IMG/VR virus record: IMGVR_UViG_3300042402_003305
Coordinates: 1-21,823 of that record
Reading direction: 5' to 3' (one strand)
Length of the DNA: 21,823 nucleotides
From: a virus
Position numbers and translations under genes: made by a program. The first letter of the stretch is position 1. Every line of letters begins with the position of its first letter. Below the pieces are notes generated by a model that was not told the DNA's origin, did not search any database, and was given only the letters and a program-made list of their open reading frames with translations. Below are positions 2,182 through 21,595 of the stretch, piece after piece.

Positions 2182-3722
2182 CCACCCCCCTGACCTACCT
2201 CGTGGAGATCACTGCCCACGACGGCGCCACCACCACCACCCTGCGCTATGCCTCCGGCCGGGGCACGATGACGCTGCCGAGCGAAGCCCCGGCGAACGCC
2301 TGGTTTGCCCCGCGCCTGATGCAGCCGATCAGCTTCAAGCGGACCATGTTCGCCTCCGCCCGCGTGGCCGGCGGCGCCACGGTCGGCACGGGCGAAATCG
2401 TCCTCAACAACCTCGATCAAGAACTGGCCAGCCTGCGCGACTACGGCATTGACGGCCGCGCCGTGGTGGTGCGGATAGGGCCGCAGGGCGCCGCCTATCC
2501 CAGCGGCTACACCACGGTGCTGACCGGCACGGCGGAACAGGCCACGGTGGGCGCCGCGGATGCCACGATCCGGCTGCGGGACAAGCTGCACATCCTGACC
2601 CAGCCGCTCCAGGCCACGCTCTACGCCGGCACGAACAGCCTGCCGAGCGGCGCCGAGGGCACGGCGGACGACATCAAGGGCCAGCGCAAGCCGCTCCTGT
2701 TTGGCCGGCGCTACCAGATTGAACCGGTGCTGGTGAACACGGCCAAGCTGATCTACCAGTTCCACGACGGCGCGGCGCAGGCTGTGGATGCCGTCTATGA
2801 CCAGGGTGTGGCGCTCACGGCCGGCACCACGCGCGCCAACCTCGCCGCGATGGAAGCCACCGCCCCGGCTGCCGGCGCCTATGACACCTGCCTCTCCCTT
2901 GGCCTCATTCGCCTGGGCGCCTCGCCGTCTGGCCGCGTCACCCTGGATGCCCGCGGCGACGCAACCGGCGGCTACGTCGATACCGCGGCCGAGATCGTCT
3001 CGCGCATCCTCACCCAGCGATGCGGCGTGGCGGGCGGCGATCTGGATAGCGCCACCTTCACGGCCCTCGCCAGCGCGGCGGGCTACGAGTGCGGCGCCTA
3101 CTTCACGGGCGAGACGACGCGGCAACAGGCGATCGACACCGTGCTGGCATCGGTGGGCGGCTGGCTCGCCCCGGATCGTGCCGGCGTCTGGCAGGTCGGG
3201 CGGCTTGTGGCGCCGTCCGGTTCGGCGACGTTCGAGTTTACGGACGTGGATATCCTCGCCCTCGAAACCCAAGCGCCGCGCGATGCCGATGCCGGGGTGC
3301 CGGTCTGGCGCGTGAAGTTGCGCGGCCTGCCCTATACCGAATTGGCCCGATCCGACCTGGCCGGCGCTGTCTCGGAAGCCGACAAGGCCCGCTTGCTCCA
3401 GCCGTGGCGCGAGGTGACGGCCAGCGATTCCAGCGTGCAGACCAAGCACCTCCTGGCGCCGGAGATGGTGCGCGACACGGCCATTCAGGACGCCACGGAT
3501 TTGGCCACGGAGGCGGCCCGGTTGCTGGCGCTGCACAAGGTGCGACGGGATTTCGTGCAAACCCGCGTGGCGCTGACGCAGGACAACGCGGCCGTTGATT
3601 TGGGCGACGTGGTGACGCTGACGACGGATCGGCTGGGCTACGGCTCGGGGCGGGATTTCGTGGTCGTGGGCATTGATGCCGATGGCAAGCGCAAGCGGTT
3701 GACGCTGGATTTGTGGGGGTAG
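2178..3722 (+). CDS. Putative tail hub or tail-tip structural protein
   Basis: This 514-residue protein follows the tape measure gene with an ATGA overlap, the position where tail hub or tip proteins usually lie. The N-terminal part is beta-rich (YLVEITAHDG, then GEIVLNNLDQEL near residue 75). The middle has a GQRKPLLFG loop near 170. The C-terminus (LGDVVTLTTDRLGYGSGRDF, then FVVVGIDADGKRKRLTLDLWG-like residues) is a pattern that I associate with hub-like domains of phage tail proteins. No enzymatic motif is seen. It probably joins tube and fibres. The specific role is inferred from order and fold-like pattern, not from a certain family match. Confidence 0.55.
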   Translation: MTTPLTYLVEITAHDGATTTTLRYASGRGTMTLPSEAPANAWFAPRLMQPISFKRTMFASARVAGGATVGTGEIVLNNLDQELASLRDYGIDGRAVVVRIGPQGAAYPSGYTTVLTGTAEQATVGAADATIRLRDKLHILTQPLQATLYAGTNSLPSGAEGTADDIKGQRKPLLFGRRYQIEPVLVNTAKLIYQFHDGAAQAVDAVYDQGVALTAGTTRANLAAMEATAPAAGAYDTCLSLGLIRLGASPSGRVTLDARGDATGGYVDTAAEIVSRILTQRCGVAGGDLDSATFTALASAAGYECGAYFTGETTRQQAIDTVLASVGGWLAPDRAGVWQVGRLVAPSGSATFEFTDVDILALETQAPRDADAGVPVWRVKLRGLPYTELARSDLAGAVSEADKARLLQPWREVTASDSSVQTKHLLAPEMVRDTAIQDATDLATEAARLLALHKVRRDFVQTRVALTQDNAAVDLGDVVTLTTDRLGYGSGRDFVVVGIDADGKRKRLTLDLWG

Positions 3723-5151: not shown

Positions 5152-6405
5152 ATGTCCATCGAACCCTGGATCAACTGGCAGTTCCACAAGACGCCGGGCC
5201 TGATCGACCCGCGCGCCGCCTTCACCCGCGCCAGCACAGCCCGCACCGTCAACCGCATCGGCCAGCTCGCCACGAAGCCCGCCAACGTTTCGCGCTTCCG
5301 GTTCAACCCGGTCTCCGGCGTGTCGGAGGGCCTGCTGTGCGAGCCGCAGCGCACCAACCTGCTTCTGCGCAGCGAGGAATTCGACAACGCGGCCTGGACG
5401 GCGACCAACTGCACCGTCACCGCCAACAGCGCCGTCGCGCCCGATGGCGCCACCACGGCGGAGACGCTGGCGGCGACGGCCAGCGGCGGCAACGTGGCGC
5501 AGGCGGTGACAATCACGGCCGGGCGAGGGGTGGCCTACTCGCAATACTTCAAGGCCAACACCTCCTCCTGGGCCTGGATGCAGATCGGCGACGGCACGAA
5601 CACCGTTCAGTGCTGGTTCAACCTCGCCAGCGGCGTGGCCGGCAGCAACACCGCCGGCGCCGGCACTCTGCTGTTTTCGCAGAAGACCATCGAGGCGATG
5701 GGCAACGGCTGGTATCGCTGCGCCATCGAGGCCACGAGTTCCACGGTTACGGCGATCACGGCCACATGCGGTCCGGCGGCGGCAGGCAGCACCGCGCCGG
5801 CCAACGGCGATTCCGTCTTTGTCTGGGGCGCGCAGGCGGAGGCGGATGCCACCCTGACAAACCCCACCAGCTACATCCCCACCACCAGCGCCACCGTCAC
5901 CCGCAGCGCCGACAACCTGATCCTGCCTGTCTCGTCGTCGCAGGTGTCGTTGGATCGCGGCACCATGCTCTTCGAATGGACCCAGCGGCCGATCCCGGCG
6001 ACGACCGGGGGGCAATCGATCACCTTCGGCGGCATCGGGAACACCTTCGACAATGCCATCTATGTCGGTCGCCAGGGCGCTTCCGTTTTCGGTGTCACGT
6101 ATATCCAGAACGGCGTCGGCGGCATGACGGTGGGCCGAACCTGCCTGTTCGTGCCGGGCGTCACCTACCGCTTCGGTGTGTCGTGGATGCCAGGCCGGAT
6201 CGCTACCTGCATCGATGGAGGCACGATCGGCACGTTGTCTGTCGGCACGGTGGCCCCGCTTGCTTCGGTGGCCCGCCTCGCCGTGGGTTGCGCGCCGTGG
6301 TCCTCGTCGTCCACCACCACCGTCAGCAACGCCGTCCACCGCGCCTTCCTCTACGCGCCCGTGGCAGCGTCCGACGCGCTGCTGCAGCAGCTCACCGCCC
6401 CGTAG
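5152..6405 (+). CDS. Head-spike-fibre-like protein with C-terminal LamG-like domain
   Basis: This 417-residue protein begins one base after the previous stop, with GAGGTGG upstream. Residues about 25-84 carry the conserved spike signature: FTRASTA, then ANVSRFRFNP, LLCEPQRTNLLLRSEEFDN and AAWT. This matches the family annotated as phage head spike fibre domain. It is followed by a carbohydrate-binding-like beta sandwich (about 85-240, with FVWGAQAEADAT and TSYIPTTSATVTRSADNL). The C-terminal 150 residues resemble a concanavalin or LamG-like jelly roll (GVSWMPGRIATCIDGG). The role is probably receptor or polysaccharide binding on the virion. The family call is well supported; head versus tail location is unknown. 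Confidence 0.7.
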   Translation: MSIEPWINWQFHKTPGLIDPRAAFTRASTARTVNRIGQLATKPANVSRFRFNPVSGVSEGLLCEPQRTNLLLRSEEFDNAAWTATNCTVTANSAVAPDGATTAETLAATASGGNVAQAVTITAGRGVAYSQYFKANTSSWAWMQIGDGTNTVQCWFNLASGVAGSNTAGAGTLLFSQKTIEAMGNGWYRCAIEATSSTVTAITATCGPAAAGSTAPANGDSVFVWGAQAEADATLTNPTSYIPTTSATVTRSADNLILPVSSSQVSLDRGTMLFEWTQRPIPATTGGQSITFGGIGNTFDNAIYVGRQGASVFGVTYIQNGVGGMTVGRTCLFVPGVTYRFGVSWMPGRIATCIDGGTIGTLSVGTVAPLASVARLAVGCAPWSSSSTTTVSNAVHRAFLYAPVAASDALLQQLTAP

Positions 6406-6416
6406 GAGCCCGCGCC

Positions 6417-6662
6417 ATGTGGACCCGATCCTGCCACCGCTTCATTAACGAGGCGGCTTTTCTCGCTGCGTGCGACGCCGCGGGCTGGCCGCGCGATCAC
6501 CAGGACCGCCCGAGCCCGCCCGCCGATGTACAACTGGACATCATCGGCGCCCTGTCCGATCCGCGCTGGCACGTCAATGCCGCGTGGTTTTGCCGCGACA
6601 TCGACGCGGCGTGGGTGGCCAGCGAGATAGCGCCCGCCACGCCGTCGCGCGTGTGGGCATAG
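6417..6662 (+). CDS. Small conserved phage protein after the spike gene
   Basis: This 81-residue frame starts at the ATG at 6417 with an AGGAG box at 6404-6408, part of which is the previous stop region. The pattern RFINEAAFLAACDAAGW near the start, PRWHVNAAW in the middle and P-A-T-P-S-R-V-W-A at the end matches a common unnamed phage protein that lies just behind fibre genes and usually ends in R-V-F-A. It has no membrane segment and three cysteines. A structural or fibre-assembly role is a guess from its position. Confidence 0.6.
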   Translation: MWTRSCHRFINEAAFLAACDAAGWPRDHQDRPSPPADVQLDIIGALSDPRWHVNAAWFCRDIDAAWVASEIAPATPSRVWA

Positions 6663-6732
6663 GCCCGATAAATCGTCGTCAATAGTGCGTTAATCTAGCG
6701 CTGGTTGTGGCGTGATTCCGGAGGCTTGGTGC

Positions 6733-7047
6733 ATGGGTGATGAGGAGCGCCGTGCGGCCAACCTGAGCCTGCTGAATGACCTTCTTGACCGCACCGCGCG
6801 CATTGAGGAGCGCGGGAAGATGCGGAAGGAATGGGAAGACCGCACGGAAGGCCGGCTCGAAAAGATCGAAGCAGGCCAGTCCACGACGAACAAGAAACTG
6901 GACGAGGTGATTGCCGAGATCCGCACAGCTAAGGCTGTCGGCAAATTCGGCGGTCGCTTCATCGGTTGGTTTTTTGAGAAAATCCCAGGCGCCAGCATCG
7001 CAGCCGGCATTGGCTACGCGGCGCATTTCATCTGGCCGTCGAAGTAG
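6733..7047 (+). CDS. Coiled-coil protein with C-terminal membrane segment (XhlA-like)
   Basis: The ATG at 6733 was chosen because GGAGG lies at 6720-6724; an in-frame GTG at 6712 lacks such a site. The product has 104 residues. Residues 1-70 are charged and helical, with the heptad look of a coiled coil (LLDRTARIEERGKMRKEWED, then EGRLEKIEAGQ). Residues about 78-100 form a hydrophobic segment rich in Gly and Ala. A coiled coil joined to one membrane helix is the layout of XhlA-type lysis accessory proteins. A lysis role is possible but not proven, and the real endolysin is 4.5 kb away. Confidence 0.5.
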   Translation: MGDEERRAANLSLLNDLLDRTARIEERGKMRKEWEDRTEGRLEKIEAGQSTTNKKLDEVIAEIRTAKAVGKFGGRFIGWFFEKIPGASIAAGIGYAAHFIWPSK

Positions 7048-16442: not shown

Positions 16443-17041
16443 GCCGGCACCCCCACCCGCTTCTCCGCCGCCATAACCGCCGCCTCGACATCCAGCGACA
16501 GCTCGGGCCGTTTCTCCCTCAGCCAGTCGCGCTGCTTCGTTGCCGTCTCGTTGGCCAGCAGCGCGGCCAGGGTGGTGGCGTCTTCGATCGCGTCGGCCTG
16601 GGCGCGGAGATCGTTGGCGATGGTGGTGGCGCGATCGGGGGTCGCCGCAGCAACCAGCGGCAACACGCGGTAGGGCTTGCGGGCCTTCTTCGTCGCGGTC
16701 AGGGCCAGCACGACCGGCGCATCCATGTCGCTCATGTTTGAGATGCGGATGCCGCCCACCTCCATGCCGCCCCAGGTAACGGCAGGATCGCGATACAACG
16801 TCATGCCGCGGCCGATGTATTGGCTTGCGTCCGGGCCCCACACTGCCACCATGACGCGGCGCATGCTCTTGCACGGTTTGTAGGGCTTCCCTGCGTCGCC
16901 CTCGAACGCAACCGCGATGGGCTGCTCACCCTCGCCAGTCGCGCGCACGCCGGTGATAGTGATCGTGCGCGGGCCGCTGAGCAGGTCGTCGCTGTTCAAC
17001 TGGTCCGACTTCGGCACGATGGTCGTGGTCATGTCGATCAA
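16439..17041 (-). CDS. Conserved partner of the YqaJ-type exonuclease
   Basis: This 200-residue protein is very like a family I know to lie next to YqaJ exonucleases in alphaproteobacterial phages: TTTIVPKSDQLNSDDLLSGP, P-I-A-V-A-F-E-G-D, KPYKPCKSMRRVMVAVWGPD, LYRDPAVTWGGMEVGGIRIS and an Ala-rich helical tail. Strand content in residues 25-125 suggests an OB-like or beta-barrel fold. A role as single-strand binding or annealing partner is inferred from the pairing. The start is probably TTG at 17041, since AGGAG lies eight bases upstream and TTGA overlaps the exonuclease stop; an ATG at 17032 would be 17 bases from that site. Confidence 0.7.
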   Translation of the reverse strand: MIDMTTTIVPKSDQLNSDDLLSGPRTITITGVRATGEGEQPIAVAFEGDAGKPYKPCKSMRRVMVAVWGPDASQYIGRGMTLYRDPAVTWGGMEVGGIRISNMSDMDAPVVLALTATKKARKPYRVLPLVAAATPDRATTIANDLRAQADAIEDATTLAALLANETATKQRDWLREKRPELSLDVEAAVMAAEKRVGVPA

Positions 17042-17730
17042 AGGTGCATCTCCTGTTCGATGCGGCGTTTTGTAGGGATGAGGCGCGGCACAAAGCCCCC
17101 GCCATCAACCATGGCGGCGTATTCCGCCATTTGGCTGGCCATAGCTTCGCAAAACACAGTGGCGGCATTCACGATGGCGGCTTGCACATCGGTATCTGCA
17201 TGCATGCGGATCGTAACCATTGGCATACCGCCGCAGTAGCTAATGAAGTCGCACCATCTGCGGCCCGTCACCAGCAATCCAGTTTGGATCTGAATCCGGT
17301 ATTCATCCGGCACGCAACCGCTGATGATTGTCTCGGCCTGAAACTTCTGCCTCCGGCTCTTTACCTCAATCAGCCCGTCATCGCCCACCAGCCCATCCGG
17401 CGAGTAGCCGAGCGTGAAGCCCCAATCGTCGCGCGTGATGAACCCGACTTCCTCAACCGGCGCGTAGTGCTTGGCGTAGAGCAGCCGCGCCTCAACCTCG
17501 TCTTCTCGGCCGCGCAACATGTCGTCGCTGATGTAGCGGGGCTCAACGTGGCCGGTGATGCGTTGGGCAAGCAGCTCGTAAAGGTGCGCGCTGGCCTTGT
17601 CGTTCTTGGCCGGCTTGAGGGTTTTGGGGCTCAGGATCAGGGACATTTCCGAGGCGGTCAGCAGGCCGCAGCGGGCTTGGAGCCAGGCGTCGCTGCCTTG
17701 GAGGAGATCGCGGTGGATCGTGGTGGTCAT
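17038..17730 (-). CDS. YqaJ-type viral exonuclease
   Basis: This 230-residue protein has the full YqaJ signature: GSDAWLQARCGLLTAS (12-27), GREDEVEARLLYA (74-86), LGYSPDGLVGDDGLIEVKS (107-125) and PDEYRIQIQTGLLVTGRRW (141-159). Catalytic residues are probably Glu80 in the helix, Asp112, Glu122 and Lys124, with Gln147 or Gln149 in the last motif. The family degrades duplex DNA ends as lambda Exo does and acts with an annealing protein. Length is normal. The ATG overlaps the stop of a 32-residue frame as ATGA, and the downstream partner starts inside its stop. Confidence 0.85.
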   Translation of the reverse strand: MTTTIHRDLLQGSDAWLQARCGLLTASEMSLILSPKTLKPAKNDKASAHLYELLAQRITGHVEPRYISDDMLRGREDEVEARLLYAKHYAPVEEVGFITRDDWGFTLGYSPDGLVGDDGLIEVKSRRQKFQAETIISGCVPDEYRIQIQTGLLVTGRRWCDFISYCGGMPMVTIRMHADTDVQAAIVNAATVFCEAMASQMAEYAAMVDGGGFVPRLIPTKRRIEQEMHL

Positions 17731-18560: not shown

Positions 18561-18895
18561 GGGGCGTCACCACGGATGCGGCGCGACAGTTCTTCCAGCC
18601 GGTCCCGCGTGGCATTCCACAACCGCGCGTAATCACTGTCGCTCATGTCGCCAGCAGAGGACGGATGCAGGGCATCCATGGCCGCTGCCGTCTGTTCCAA
18701 CGCCTCCGCCATTTCCGGGGCGTGCTGGATCAACAGGGCGTTGGCTTTGTGCCTGTAGTGGCCGGGCCCAGCAAACCGGACAATGCGCGCAATCGCGAAT
18801 TGAGGGGTGGATTGCTGTTCAATAAGCGCACGCTCGCTATCGTTGCTATTGTTTTGAATTACCCAAGGCCCCGGCGTCCAAGGTGTCGCGCTCAT
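18557..18895 (-). CDS. TPGPW-family phage early protein
   Basis: The ATG at 18895 overlaps the previous stop. The product has 112 residues. It begins with WTPGPWVIQNNSND and continues with FAIARIVRFAGPGHYRHKAN, then ALLIQHAPEMAEALEQTAAA. The order T-P-G-P-W ... I-A ... A-N-A-x-L-I-x-x-A-P-E-M-x-E-A-L is shared by a very common phage family of unknown function. The C-terminal helix (YARLWNATRDRLEELSRRI) is charged. The family call is good; its role is unknown. Confidence 0.7.
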   Translation of the reverse strand: MSATPWTPGPWVIQNNSNDSERALIEQQSTPQFAIARIVRFAGPGHYRHKANALLIQHAPEMAEALEQTAAAMDALHPSSAGDMSDSDYARLWNATRDRLEELSRRIRGDAP

Positions 18896-19615: not shown

Positions 19616-19867
19616 TCAGGCGGTGGCGGGCTTGGCCTTGCGCGGGGCCTTGGGGGCGGGGATCAGCGCCTTGCTGGCAGCGGCCAGCGCCTGCTCGGCG
19701 GTGTGGTGGATGGTTGTGCTGCGACCGCTCTGGCCGACCTGGTCATCCCAAAGGCTGGTGCTGACGATATAGCCGTTCGAAACGCGGCGGATGCTCAGGT
19801 AGTCGGGGGGGGCAAGCGTGGGGGCGGGGGCCGGCGCGGGCGCCTCGGCCTTTTTCTTCGGGGGCAT
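19616..19867 (-). CDS. First leftward early gene; Lys/Pro/Ala-rich ends
   Basis: The ATG at 19867 was chosen because GGAG lies seven bases upstream; a longer frame would run into the promoter. The product has 83 residues. Both ends are basic and Ala/Pro-rich (PPKKKAEAPAPAPAP and PAPKAPRKAKPATA), similar to tails of nucleoid-associated proteins. The core is a small beta-rich domain (YLSIRRVSNGYIVSTSLWDD) followed by a helix (TAEQALAAASKAL). It is next to the operator-containing promoter, so it is expressed first after infection. Binding of DNA is inferred from composition only. Confidence 0.6.
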   Translation of the reverse strand: MPPKKKAEAPAPAPAPTLAPPDYLSIRRVSNGYIVSTSLWDDQVGQSGRSTTIHHTAEQALAAASKALIPAPKAPRKAKPATA

Positions 19868-19898
19868 GTTGTAGCTCCAGCGCGGGATGCGCTGGGCT

Positions 19899-19928
19899 AA
19901 GATTGTGCAAATTTGCAAATGCCGTCAA
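19899..19928 (-). promoter_or_regulatory. Leftward early promoter (PL-like)
   Basis: The - strand has TTGACG at 19928-19923 followed, after 17 or 18 bases, by CAATCT or AATCTT. The -35 is good and the -10 poor, so the exact -10 is uncertain. It lies between two TTTGC-type sites and about 30 bases before the start codon region of the first early gene. Confidence 0.5.
19904..19919 (-). promoter_or_regulatory. Operator site L1
   Basis: The - strand reads TTTGCAAATTTGCACA, which agrees at 13 of 16 positions with the site in the cro promoter. It also holds the perfect 12-bp palindrome TGCAAATTTGCA (19906-19917). It lies in the spacer of the leftward early promoter. Confidence 0.65.
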
Positions 19929-19943
19929 GCGCAAAAATGCAAA
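19928..19943 (-). promoter_or_regulatory. Operator-like site L2
   Basis: The - strand reads TTTGCATTTTTGCGCT, 11 of 16 identical with the cro site. It lies directly upstream of the leftward -35 and 24 bp from L1. It is the weakest of the three copies. Confidence 0.45.
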
Positions 19944-19996
19944 CGCGCCGGCTAAAAAAACAGCCGCCTCTCACGCACGCGCCATGCGGATTTCGT

Positions 19997-20021
19997 TGAC
20001 GCCCCTCAATGGCAGGCGTCA
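19997..20021. promoter_or_regulatory. TGACGCC inverted repeat behind the repressor gene
   Basis: TGACGCC (19997-20003) and GGCGTCA (20015-20021) are perfect 7-bp arms around 11 bases. The arms equal those of the P1/P2 operators, but the centre is longer. It lies between the repressor stop and the leftward early promoter, and might be a further target of the same protein. Confidence 0.4.
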
Positions 20022-20071
20022 AAATAGTGTCATATCGTCGGGAAAGATTGATAGCCGTGTCGGTCGTCAGC

Positions 20072-20470
20072 CTAGCCGAATTTCGAAGCATCCGAAGCCA
20101 GGGCGCGCAAAACCGAAACTGCCCTCTTGCGGTCCGCCCGGCCCATTTCGTCCCAGATTCGCAGCCAAGCGAGCTGCTCAGGGTCTTGAACGAGACGGCC
20201 GACCTGTTCCGCAACAGGCGATTGCGGCAGAGTATCGGGCTGACTCAAGGCTTCCCGCCAAAGGCTGACGGCGCGCTCTAGCTTCGCCAGCGTCCGCGTC
20301 GTCGGGATGCTGGTGAACTCGGGGCTATTGAGAAACCGCGTGATCGTGGACGGGGCAAGCCCGGCCAAGCGGGCGAGTGTGCTTGGGTCCAGGCCGGTCT
20401 CGGTTAGATAGCCTTCGATCAAAAGCCGAGTGCGGGTCCGGGCGTCGGGCATAGCTGCATAATCGCACAT
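20072..20470 (-). CDS. Short CI-type repressor
   Basis: The product has 132 residues from the ATG at 20470, chosen because AGGCGG lies five bases upstream; an ATG at 20452 is nearly as good. Residues about 29-48 are an HTH (PSTLARLAGLAPSTITRFLN), followed by PTTRTLAKLERAV, the usual helix 5 of phage repressors. The C-terminal half (PVAEQVGRLVQDPEQLAWLR, then ADRKRAVSVLRALA) is helical. There is no S24 peptidase domain, so RecA-driven self-cleavage is not expected. It is divergent from cro with the shared operator between. CI identity is from HTH, position and divergence. Confidence 0.75.
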   Translation of the reverse strand: MCDYAAMPDARTRTRLLIEGYLTETGLDPSTLARLAGLAPSTITRFLNSPEFTSIPTTRTLAKLERAVSLWREALSQPDTLPQSPVAEQVGRLVQDPEQLAWLRIWDEMGRADRKRAVSVLRALASDASKFG

Positions 20471-20502
20471 CCCGGCCGCCTGCGCGGTGTGCATGAATGC
20501 GC

Positions 20503-20532
20503 TTGACCCGTTTGCAATTTCGCAAATATGAT
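20503..20532 (+). promoter_or_regulatory. Rightward promoter of cro (PR-like)
   Basis: TTGACC (20503-20508), 18 bases, TATGAT (20527-20532). Both boxes match five of six. The distance from the -10 to the cro ATG at 20540 is only seven bases, so the transcript probably begins at or next to the start codon. Confidence 0.75.
20511..20526. promoter_or_regulatory. Operator in the cro promoter
   Basis: TTTGCAATTTCGCAAA: TTTGC and GCAAA arms around six bases. It fills the spacer between -35 and -10, so repressor binding should block RNA polymerase. Related sites lie in front of the leftward early operon. Confidence 0.75.
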
Positions 20533-20539
20533 TGGCGCC

Positions 20540-20734
20540 ATGCATCAGCTGTTGACCCCGCAAGAGATCGAATCCCGCGCCGCGCAGGCCGGGCGCACCA
20601 TGACCGAGGTGTGCCGCAAGGCTGGCGTGGCGCCCTCCACGTTCACGCGATGGAAGGCCGGGCAGACCGAGCCGACCTTGGGGATTTACCGGCGCCTGGT
20701 GGATGCCGTGTCGACACCTCAGGCCGCCGCATGA
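20540..20734 (+). CDS. Cro-like HTH regulator
   Basis: The product has 64 residues from the ATG at 20540. An earlier in-frame ATG at 20528 lies within the -10 box and cannot be transcribed from this promoter. Residues about 20-40 are an HTH (TMTEVCRKAGVAPSTFTRWK), followed by TEPTLGIYRRLVDAV, typical of short Cro/YdaS-like proteins. It is the first gene of the rightward early transcript and is opposite the repressor, so it should compete for the same operator. It overlaps the next gene as ATGA. Confidence 0.75.
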   Translation: MHQLLTPQEIESRAAQAGRTMTEVCRKAGVAPSTFTRWKAGQTEPTLGIYRRLVDAVSTPQAAA

Positions 20735-20936: not shown

Positions 20937-21410
20937 ATGAGCAAGATGCTACTCGCCGAGGACAAGATGCTGGCGCTGAAGACCGCCACTCGGCTGCTGA
21001 TCGCGCGGCTCGGCACGTTTGAGGCTGCGGCGTCGGTGTGCCGGCTCCAGGTGTCGGCGCTGCAGGAATGCGCGAGCCGGAACCACCCCGAGCGCATGCT
21101 GCCTCTGGACGTGATCCTGCAGCTCGAGGAATGCGCGGGCGAGCCGATCGTCACCGGGGCGATGGCGCGGTTGCAGGGGCTGGCGGTGGCGCGGCCTGAG
21201 GCGGTGCAGGTGCCGGCCATCGGGGCGTCGGTGGGTGCGGCTGTGGCGCAGGCCGGGGCGCTGGCGTCGGAGCTGCTGTCTGCGCAGGCGGATGGGCGGC
21301 TGGACGAAGGCGAGCGGGCGTCGCTGCTGGCTCGGGCGGAGAGCGTCCGCAATGCGGCTGAGGCCACGATGGCTTCGTTGGCGCCGGTGGCGCTGCGGGC
21401 GGTGGCGTGA
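20937..21410 (+). CDS. Phage regulatory CII-like protein
   Basis: This 157-residue protein has GAGGGG six bases before the ATG. Residues 13-80 read ALKTATRLLIARLGTFEAAA, then SVCRLQVSALQECASRNHPE, MLPLDVILQLEECAGEPIVT and a last G-A-M-A-R-L. This is the layout of the CII-like family: L-K-x-A-T-R ... A-A-x-x-x-R-V/L-x-x-S-x-L ... M-P-L-D-V-x-x-x-L-E. The C-terminal half is Ala-rich helix. In other phages such proteins control lysogeny genes. Here it follows cro and a membrane gene on the rightward transcript. The 68-base gap before it holds only a weak repeat (ACGCA and TGCGT). Confidence 0.7.
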   Translation: MSKMLLAEDKMLALKTATRLLIARLGTFEAAASVCRLQVSALQECASRNHPERMLPLDVILQLEECAGEPIVTGAMARLQGLAVARPEAVQVPAIGASVGAAVAQAGALASELLSAQADGRLDEGERASLLARAESVRNAAEATMASLAPVALRAVA

Positions 21411-21595
21411 TGAGCGCGAAATCCAAGGGCTGGACTTGGCGGCAGCCGAAGTTGTCGCTTGGCATGCTGGCTTGGTTGGGCGGCGCTTTCCACGTTGCTG
21501 CGCAGCCCGGCCATGGCTTCTGGGATGGCGTGATTTGGATGTGGTACGTGGGACGCTACATCGCCACCCACTTCACCGCGCTGACGCCGCTGTGA
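21410..21595 (+). CDS. Small membrane protein after the CII-like gene
   Basis: The ATG at 21410 shares its A with the previous stop (TGATG). The product has 61 residues: a basic start (SAKSKGWTWRQPK), one or two hydrophobic segments (LSLGMLAWLGGAFHVAA and GFWDGVIWMWYVGRYIATHF), and a short end. The Trp/Tyr-rich pattern H-V-A-A-Q-P-G-x-G-F ... G-R-Y-x-A-x-H-F-T-A-L is one I have seen in unnamed phage proteins. The role is unknown. Confidence 0.6.
   Translation: MSAKSKGWTWRQPKLSLGMLAWLGGAFHVAAQPGHGFWDGVIWMWYVGRYIATHFTALTPL

Follow-up and report, generated by a model that had tools for sequence, protein, structure and literature searches.

A predicted lambda-like immunity switch in a viral genome fragment and related phages of the Acetobacterales

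Genes, promoters, and operator sites of the window

The DNA analyzed here, referred to as the window, is the complete IMG/VR record IMGVR_UViG_3300042402_003305, a 21.8-kb fragment (21,823 bases) with a GC content of 66%. Long rightward ORFs in its left part look like tail genes and are followed by an M15-peptidase gene; a YqaJ exonuclease gene points leftward. Two genes for HTH proteins diverge at 20.45 to 20.54 kb, and we refer to them as repressor and Cro because of their position and their HTH. A CII-like function is predicted downstream of cro from a match to phrog_101; this ORF has no good Pfam match. The end of the CII-like gene (window positions 21103 to 21412) is 97.7% identical to positions 1 to 310 of another viral record (L003; IMGVR 3300042402_005088), and past this stretch the two records match in just one second piece, at 87%, which points to a possible mosaic joint. 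The features of the region are as follows.

17038 to 17730, minus strand: YqaJ-type exonuclease, leftward
19616 to 19879, minus strand: first ORF after PL, no family match
19900 to 19928, minus strand: putative promoter PL, TTGACG-17-CAATCT with a weak -10 (TTGACG at 19928 to 19923), placed by sequence and by the equivalent place in relatives
19904 to 19919, letters of the minus strand: predicted operator O1L, TTTGC-AAATTT-GCACA (TTTGCAAATTTGCACA), within the PL spacer
19928 to 19943, letters of the minus strand: predicted operator O2L, TTTGC-ATTTTT-GCGCT, abutting the PL -35
20072 to 20452, minus strand: prophage repressor, 126 aa, named from position and HTH (Pfam HTH_3 below its cut-off), with a short helical tail
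20454 to 20469, no strand: predicted operator O3R, GCTGC-ATAATC-GCACA (GCTGCATAATCGCACA), weak, beside the repressor start codon
20459 to 20464, minus strand: -10 of PRM (GATTAT), inside O3R, proposed from position only
20488 to 20503, no strand: predicted operator O2R, TGTGC-ATGAAT-GCGCT (TGTGCATGAATGCGCT), abutting the PR -35, same place in relatives
20503 to 20532, plus strand: promoter PR, TTGACC-18-TATGAT, 10 of 12 consensus matches (TTGACC at 20503 to 20508, TATGAT at 20527 to 20532)
20511 to 20526, no strand: predicted operator O1R, TTTGC-AATTTC-GCAAA (TTTGCAATTTCGCAAA), within the PR spacer, same place in relatives
20540 to 20734, plus strand: Cro-like HTH protein, 64 aa, named from position and Pfam HTH_31 (above cut-off)
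20937 to 21410, plus strand: CII-like regulator, next sizeable ORF rightward, phrog_101 (E value of 2.5e-15)

Between the divergent genes are three related sites: two cover PR, and the third adjoins the repressor start. Their centers are at 9.5 (O3R), 43.5 (O2R), and 66.5 bp (O1R) from the repressor ATG, and O2R is 23 bp from O1R. The same operators recur at the leftward early promoter PL as two sites instead of lambda's three, with O2L and O1L spaced 24 bp center to center. O2R and O2L are in equal register, each running directly into TTGAC (GTKTGCATNNNTGCGCTTGAC on both strands). A first-pass annotation of this DNA had described a TTTGC-N6-GCAAA motif in the spacer of the cro promoter, and it is indeed found there, at 20511 to 20526 between TTGACC and TATGAT. 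Two sites are likewise present on the left, as that annotation had it, including the weaker copy at 19928 to 19943 beside the leftward site. The leftward copy does share 13 of 16 bases and does occupy the spacer of a leftward TTGACG, whereas the promoter itself is less clear, with a poor -10 and no call by a consensus promoter scan. The statement that the right side holds a single site has to be corrected to three, as O1R is accompanied by O2R and by the weak O3R.

By consensus, the -10 of PL and the -35 of PRM are both poor, and no recognizable -35 is present for the PRM of the window. The A and T of the O3 spacer were considered as an independent sign of PRM and rejected by a control on the O1 and O2 spacers, in which the same letters as in the PRM-like -10 within O3 are common (A in 24 of 34 and T in 33 of 34). 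The cro ATG follows the PR -10 by 7 nt, which suggests that the cro mRNA of the window is probably leaderless or nearly so. A -10 for cro was sought in 23 loci solely within the interval 6 to 9 nt ahead of its ATG, and the quality of the best match ranges from good to poor.

Repeats arising by chance in an AT-rich intergenic stretch could also resemble operators, and a bare pattern count would agree with this explanation: with 3 mismatches allowed, 58 occurrences were found in the window against 66 expected. The bare count shows no enrichment and was dropped as evidence. A different result was obtained with a dyad matrix built from other phages only, with the window left out. In a scan of the 21.8 kb with this matrix, whose sites had been picked by position once the layout was known (a choice that favors the right side; no left-hand site entered the matrix), the top four scores were those of O1L (23.8), O2L (21.7), O1R (21.1), and O2R (19.7), followed by an unrelated place (11.1) and, in sixth position, O3R (10.8). 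Any site matching the fourth-best score occurred in 2 of 300 simulated windows. In 21.8 kb, chance alone is expected to give about 1.8 sites scoring as high as O3R; O3R stands on its position and not on its score. The fifth-best matrix site, TGCGCGCAATCGCGAA at 18784 to 18799 in the leftward early region, is also at about chance level. Considering these scores, the exact spacing across phages, and the left pairs recovered by leave-one-out matrices (described below), we give chance almost no credence as an account of the whole; it is very unlikely for the four strong sites and may apply only to the O3R of the window.

Conservation of the layout in related phages

With the window repressor as a query, no relative was found in viral_contigs or genome_contigs; a separate search gave one weak phage match over the HTH, and Cro proved to be the better query. 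The Cro search retrieved four viral records that encode both proteins (L203, L204, L205, and L206). L205 and L210, the latter from Rhodovarius crocodyli (order Acetobacterales), are one and the same locus. The search also gave 15 further loci from Acetobacterales genomes. Cro matches occurred in 9 of 397 genomes of a family draw and in 14 of 395 genomes of an order draw, the two draws overlapping. We tabulated 19 loci with a neighboring repressor, including the window. Dropped before this count were Cro-like ORFs judged by eye to have no neighboring repressor or sites (L237/L252 and L211/L226), a poor match (L228), L209 and L213, and three loci with a weak Cro match and another repressor arrangement (L207, L208, and L212). 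In these last three, which come from other alphaproteobacterial records, the Cro-like ORFs adjoin long divergent repressor-like ORFs. An exonuclease query gave 80 loci, among which tblastn found both switch genes in L014 only. Three lone Cro-like matches (L009, L010, and L043) had upstream DNA without sites recognizable by eye. Further searches with a Cro alignment yielded nothing new, as the matches in a class draw (2 of 385 genomes) and in two sets of genera (4 of 26 and 4 of 49) were all known already, and a search of plasmids gave no match.

The spacing of the right operators is closely kept. O3, O2, and O1 with intact GC cores stand at exactly 34 and 23 bp in 13 of the 19 loci, window included, a count in which the loci are not fully independent because L249, L250, and L256 are 93 to 96% alike in OR. 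Among these 13, the layout is shifted by 3 in L204 and by 1 in L253. In L251, L257, and L258, degenerate-core sites occur at the expected places (O3 of L251 by eye). O2 of L206 is kept at 43.5, with 21 bp extra before O1, and two loci that combine a different short repressor type with the same Cro family (L244 and L248) have sites at 9.5/58.5/89.5. The O3 site is a strong palindrome in many relatives and weak in the window. The five sites, PR, the divergent HTH genes, and a spacing fixed across phages are established at the level of DNA sequence. The motif is present at the equivalent places in close relatives, where its absence had been named in the first-pass annotation as grounds for abandoning the proposal, and the parallel with OR and OL of a lambda-like switch is borne out by these relatives at base-pair resolution. 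The exact TTTGC-N6-GCAAA form, on the other hand, is the version of the window phage only; the family pattern is approximately NNNGC-N6-GCNNN, with outer bases that vary between phages.

Several peculiarities of the right-hand region were observed in passing. The 21 bp extra between O2 and O1 of L206 (positions 2893 to 3001, equal to locus L014) correspond to two turns of the helix, and a weak additional dyad lies between the two sites. L244 and L248 have a gap of 109 to 110 bp and a spacing of 49/31 instead of 34/23. All 19 repressors share a start codon, the ATG that follows O3 (window position 20452). O3 itself (window 20453 to 20470, minus strand) is in frame with the repressor gene, and its translation resembles an N-terminal peptide (MCENAHM in many relatives), so that start codons could be misannotated here.

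Left sites were scored by leave-one-out matrices, and 15 of the 19 loci show a clear left pair. These pairs lie 0.55 to 3.4 kb away from the start of the repressor, with a spacing of 23 to 25 bp in 11 of the 15, 26 bp in two, and 33 to 34 bp in two (L206 and L253). L244 has a weak left pair and L245 a single left site, and no left pair was found by these matrices in L248, a short locus, or in L251. A third left operator was rejected, with a weak candidate in L203 alone among the 19 loci. Outer bases tend to agree between left and right within one phage. For example, AGCGC/GCGCA occurs on both sides in L206.

Motif scans added a small number of loci. TTGACNNNTTTGCN6GCAAA matched at least 119 loci in viral contigs; among the matches listed, L132, on the same contig as L205, alone has both homologues, and its match lies directly before cro. 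A scan with the PL pattern hit one contig, L132, already known. The O3 motif, CATRTGYGCATTTTCGCACA, was found in seven viral contigs, all of which have a repressor and have O2 at the predicted base, with O1 there in six; the Cro ORF also matches the profile in six, the exception (L265) being due to a wrong ATG taken. Four of these contigs have an OR identical to that of tabulated loci and another, L259, is 98% alike; with five of seven 98 to 100% alike, only L263 and L264 are new, and we withdrew the scan as a strong blind test. In L263 (61% alike in OR), O2 is at the predicted base and O1 is off by one; in L264 (82% alike), both are exact. Allowing at most 1 mismatch, the O3 motif has eight occurrences in 395 genomes of the order, all of them at the cro loci that had supplied the motif and none elsewhere, and a reversed-motif control in the same genomes gave 0.

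Operator letters, recognition helices, and repressor domains

Dyads in promoter spacers are a general mode of repression, and the sites could be targets of a host regulator that the phage has borrowed, in place of its own repressor and Cro. We consider this very improbable: the half-site bases vary between phages, yet they tend to be alike in OR and OL of the same phage; these bases track a residue of the phage repressor; and in the Acetobacter phage phiAX1, a near-identical S24 tail is combined with another HTH and with other operators. Agreement of the outer bases across each dyad exceeded that of shuffled sites in 14 loci and reached 30 of 42 positions for the O1R dyad (109 of 5,000 shuffles as high) and 48 of 84 for the dyads of the left sites (30 of 5,000 shuffles as high), with sites hand-picked from the left-pair scan, so that choosing well-scoring dyads may raise the dyad-match count somewhat. 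The set includes L245, whose left pair is doubtful. L244 and L248 were left out of both the covariation and the class-change tree because of their other repressor type and L251 because of its other half-sites; L249 and L250, which are close to L256, were kept among the 19 and left out here.

The class of repressor residue 38 tracks the commonest half-site base 3 in all 14 loci, a tracking for which no significance can be claimed because the class changes few times independently on the Cro tree (three changes, two forced by supported branches). Where residue 38 is Thr (8 loci), base 3 is mostly T (64/80; 5 T and 4 A in L245), and where it is Val or Asn (6 loci), base 3 is C (48/60). In the window, residue 38 is the fifth of the recognition helix, residues 34 to 42 of the modeled repressor, a position that corresponds to a specificity residue of the 434 repressor. 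The window and phiKX1 have repressors of the Thr class, and L256 has one of the Val class.

The specificity of Cro is not explained in this way, as the recognition helix APSTFTR is shared by the Cro of the window and that of L206 although their operators differ. This lack of covariation between the Cro helix and the O1/O2 bases is what a division like that of phage PY54 would predict, in which Cro acts on O3R only and the repressor on O1 and O2 only, without a lambda switch of shared operators. PY54 Cro binds a single 16-bp OR3, according to the accessible text of PMC4488713, and many loci have O3R in a recurrent form of its own, TGYGC-ATTTTC-GCACA. However, a single core is common to the operators, O1R is located within PR, the place at which Cro would repress its own gene, and the HTHs of repressor and Cro are weakly alike. 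The Cro profile reaches the repressor HTH in three of four virus records (E values of 1.5e-4 to 6.6e-4), a likeness that is not specific because another HTH protein in one of these records scores better (4.5e-6). Overall, we regard the PY54-like division as unlikely and prefer a lambda-like switch in which both proteins share the operators.

Sequenced phages of acetic acid bacteria extend these comparisons. phiKX1 and phiKX2 (LC644975 and LC644976), phages of Komagataeibacter, encode a Cro of the same family as that of the window (40% identity) and have an identical OR with sites at 9.5, 43.5, and 66.5 as in the window; a core base is altered in two of these sites, as is also seen in L257. Their repressor has 203 aa, like the S24 repressor of L257, whereas that of the window has 126 aa. 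In phiAX1 (LC644973; L275), the HTH is unrelated by eye and the operators differ from those of the family. Its repressor tail is nearly identical to the S24 tail of L256 from about residue 80 (77% over the whole aligned part), and its CGGG-N6-CCCG dyads are found at three places: 8.5 and 77.5 bp from the repressor start, the latter in the PR spacer, and 1.67 kb to the left. Judged from these sequences, the HTH and the operators appear to have been swapped jointly. According to the accessible text of PMC8566455, phiKX1 and phiKX2 came from mitomycin C-treated Komagataeibacter xylinus, PHAST verdicts were incomplete for phiKX1 and phiAX1 and questionable for phiKX2, and CI-like Xre proteins were named for phiAP1; the word "operator" does not occur in its main text.

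Peptidase_S24, the LexA-like self-cleavage domain, gave no match in the window repressor at an E value of ≤0.01. The scan covered 15 family repressors, with L249, L250, L251, and L255 outside it; 10 have an S24 match (L203 below Pfam's cut-off), and the window, L204, L206, L244, and L248 have none. The S24 label changes four times on the Cro tree, which has few supported branches here. Given the absence of an S24 match, the window phage may escape induction through RecA-stimulated self-cleavage. A fold search of the repressor model (pLDDT of 79) gave weak matches, mostly to HTH proteins, with a best E value of 0.05. On the far side of the repressor, phiKX1 (L274 positions 2949 to 3671, minus strand) and phiAX1 (L275 positions 6170 to 6931, plus strand) carry an annotated phage antirepressor gene, a possible induction route.

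Tentatively, and with somewhat less than even confidence, we propose that immunity in these phages is modular: the operator scaffold would be fixed to the base pair, its letters would be set mainly by a helix residue or by exchange of the whole HTH (phiAX1), and the part after the HTH would have been swapped between S24 protease and short tail several times, with some phages keeping the switch without an SOS trigger.

Comparison with known switches and a proposed mechanism

The lambda OR/OL switch, operated by CI and Cro, has three right and three left operators. The window resembles it in its divergent repressor and cro genes, in O3 beside the repressor start, O1 and O2 over PR, and left operators over PL, in an O1-O2 center spacing of 23 to 24 bp, in the place of O2 about -43 from the repressor start, and in a CII-like gene after cro and an exonuclease on the leftward side. 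It differs from lambda in having two left operators and not three (also seen across the 15 of 19 loci with a clear left pair), an O3-O2 spacing of 34 bp, a GC-N6-GC half-site core, a cro that is probably leaderless, and a repressor without an S24 match.

The immB region of N15, PY54, and phiKO2 is also similar, with 16-bp palindromic operators and an operator upstream of the repressor gene, and the PY54 cI and cro mRNAs have been mapped as leaderless (accessible text of PMC4488713). PY54 has a single operator by its authors' analysis in the same source, unlike the five sites of the window, which does not have the PY54-type arrangement of one operator beside the repressor gene. Rhizobium phage 16-3, an alphaproteobacterial temperate phage with the C repressor, has paired left and right operators, oL1, oL2, oR1, and oR2, in the accessible text of PMC12429752; two right operators are named there versus three here. 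In the literature available without subscription, covering Roseomonas phages, phages of acetic acid bacteria, phage 16-3, leaderless cro, and the specificity of HTH proteins, we found no description of operators of these phages.

We assign a probability of about 0.88 to the reading that this region is, as a whole, the lambda-like immunity switch of a temperate phage. O1R, O2R, O3R, O1L, and O2L are almost certainly its operators, and the repressor very probably binds them. A repressor dimer on each site of O1R/O2R and O1L/O2L, pairs that are 23 and 24 bp apart center to center, would shut PR, and with it cro and the CII-like gene, and PL, and with it the leftward early genes and exonuclease. 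From O2R, about 43.5 bp upstream of its own start, the repressor may also activate its own weak promoter, a step to which we give even odds; it would presumably be placed there much as lambda CI is at OR2. The phasing of 23 to 24 bp and the -43.5 position fit the predicted cooperative binding and activation. O3R overlaps the proposed repressor promoter and would shut it at high repressor or when Cro is made, and we somewhat favor the view that O3R turns this promoter down. Cro probably binds the operators too, and its occupation of the same sites would lead to lysis. We infer binding, cooperativity, activation, relative affinities, and PRM from the arrangement of genes and sites.

The switch, lambda-like with three operators on the right and two on the left, is of an ordinary kind, and no description of one was found for this lineage. 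From sequence, we can now define a family of lambda-like switches in phages of the Acetobacterales, two sequenced Komagataeibacter phages among them, and its operators, promoters, and specificity rule are directly testable. The family also offers natural contrasts, such as repressors with and without S24, T versus V/N helices, the 21-bp insertion between O2 and O1, and a swapped HTH, which bear on which parts of such a switch are fixed. For specialists, the value lies in the fixed spacing, the rule linking helix and operator, and the exchange of repressor parts.
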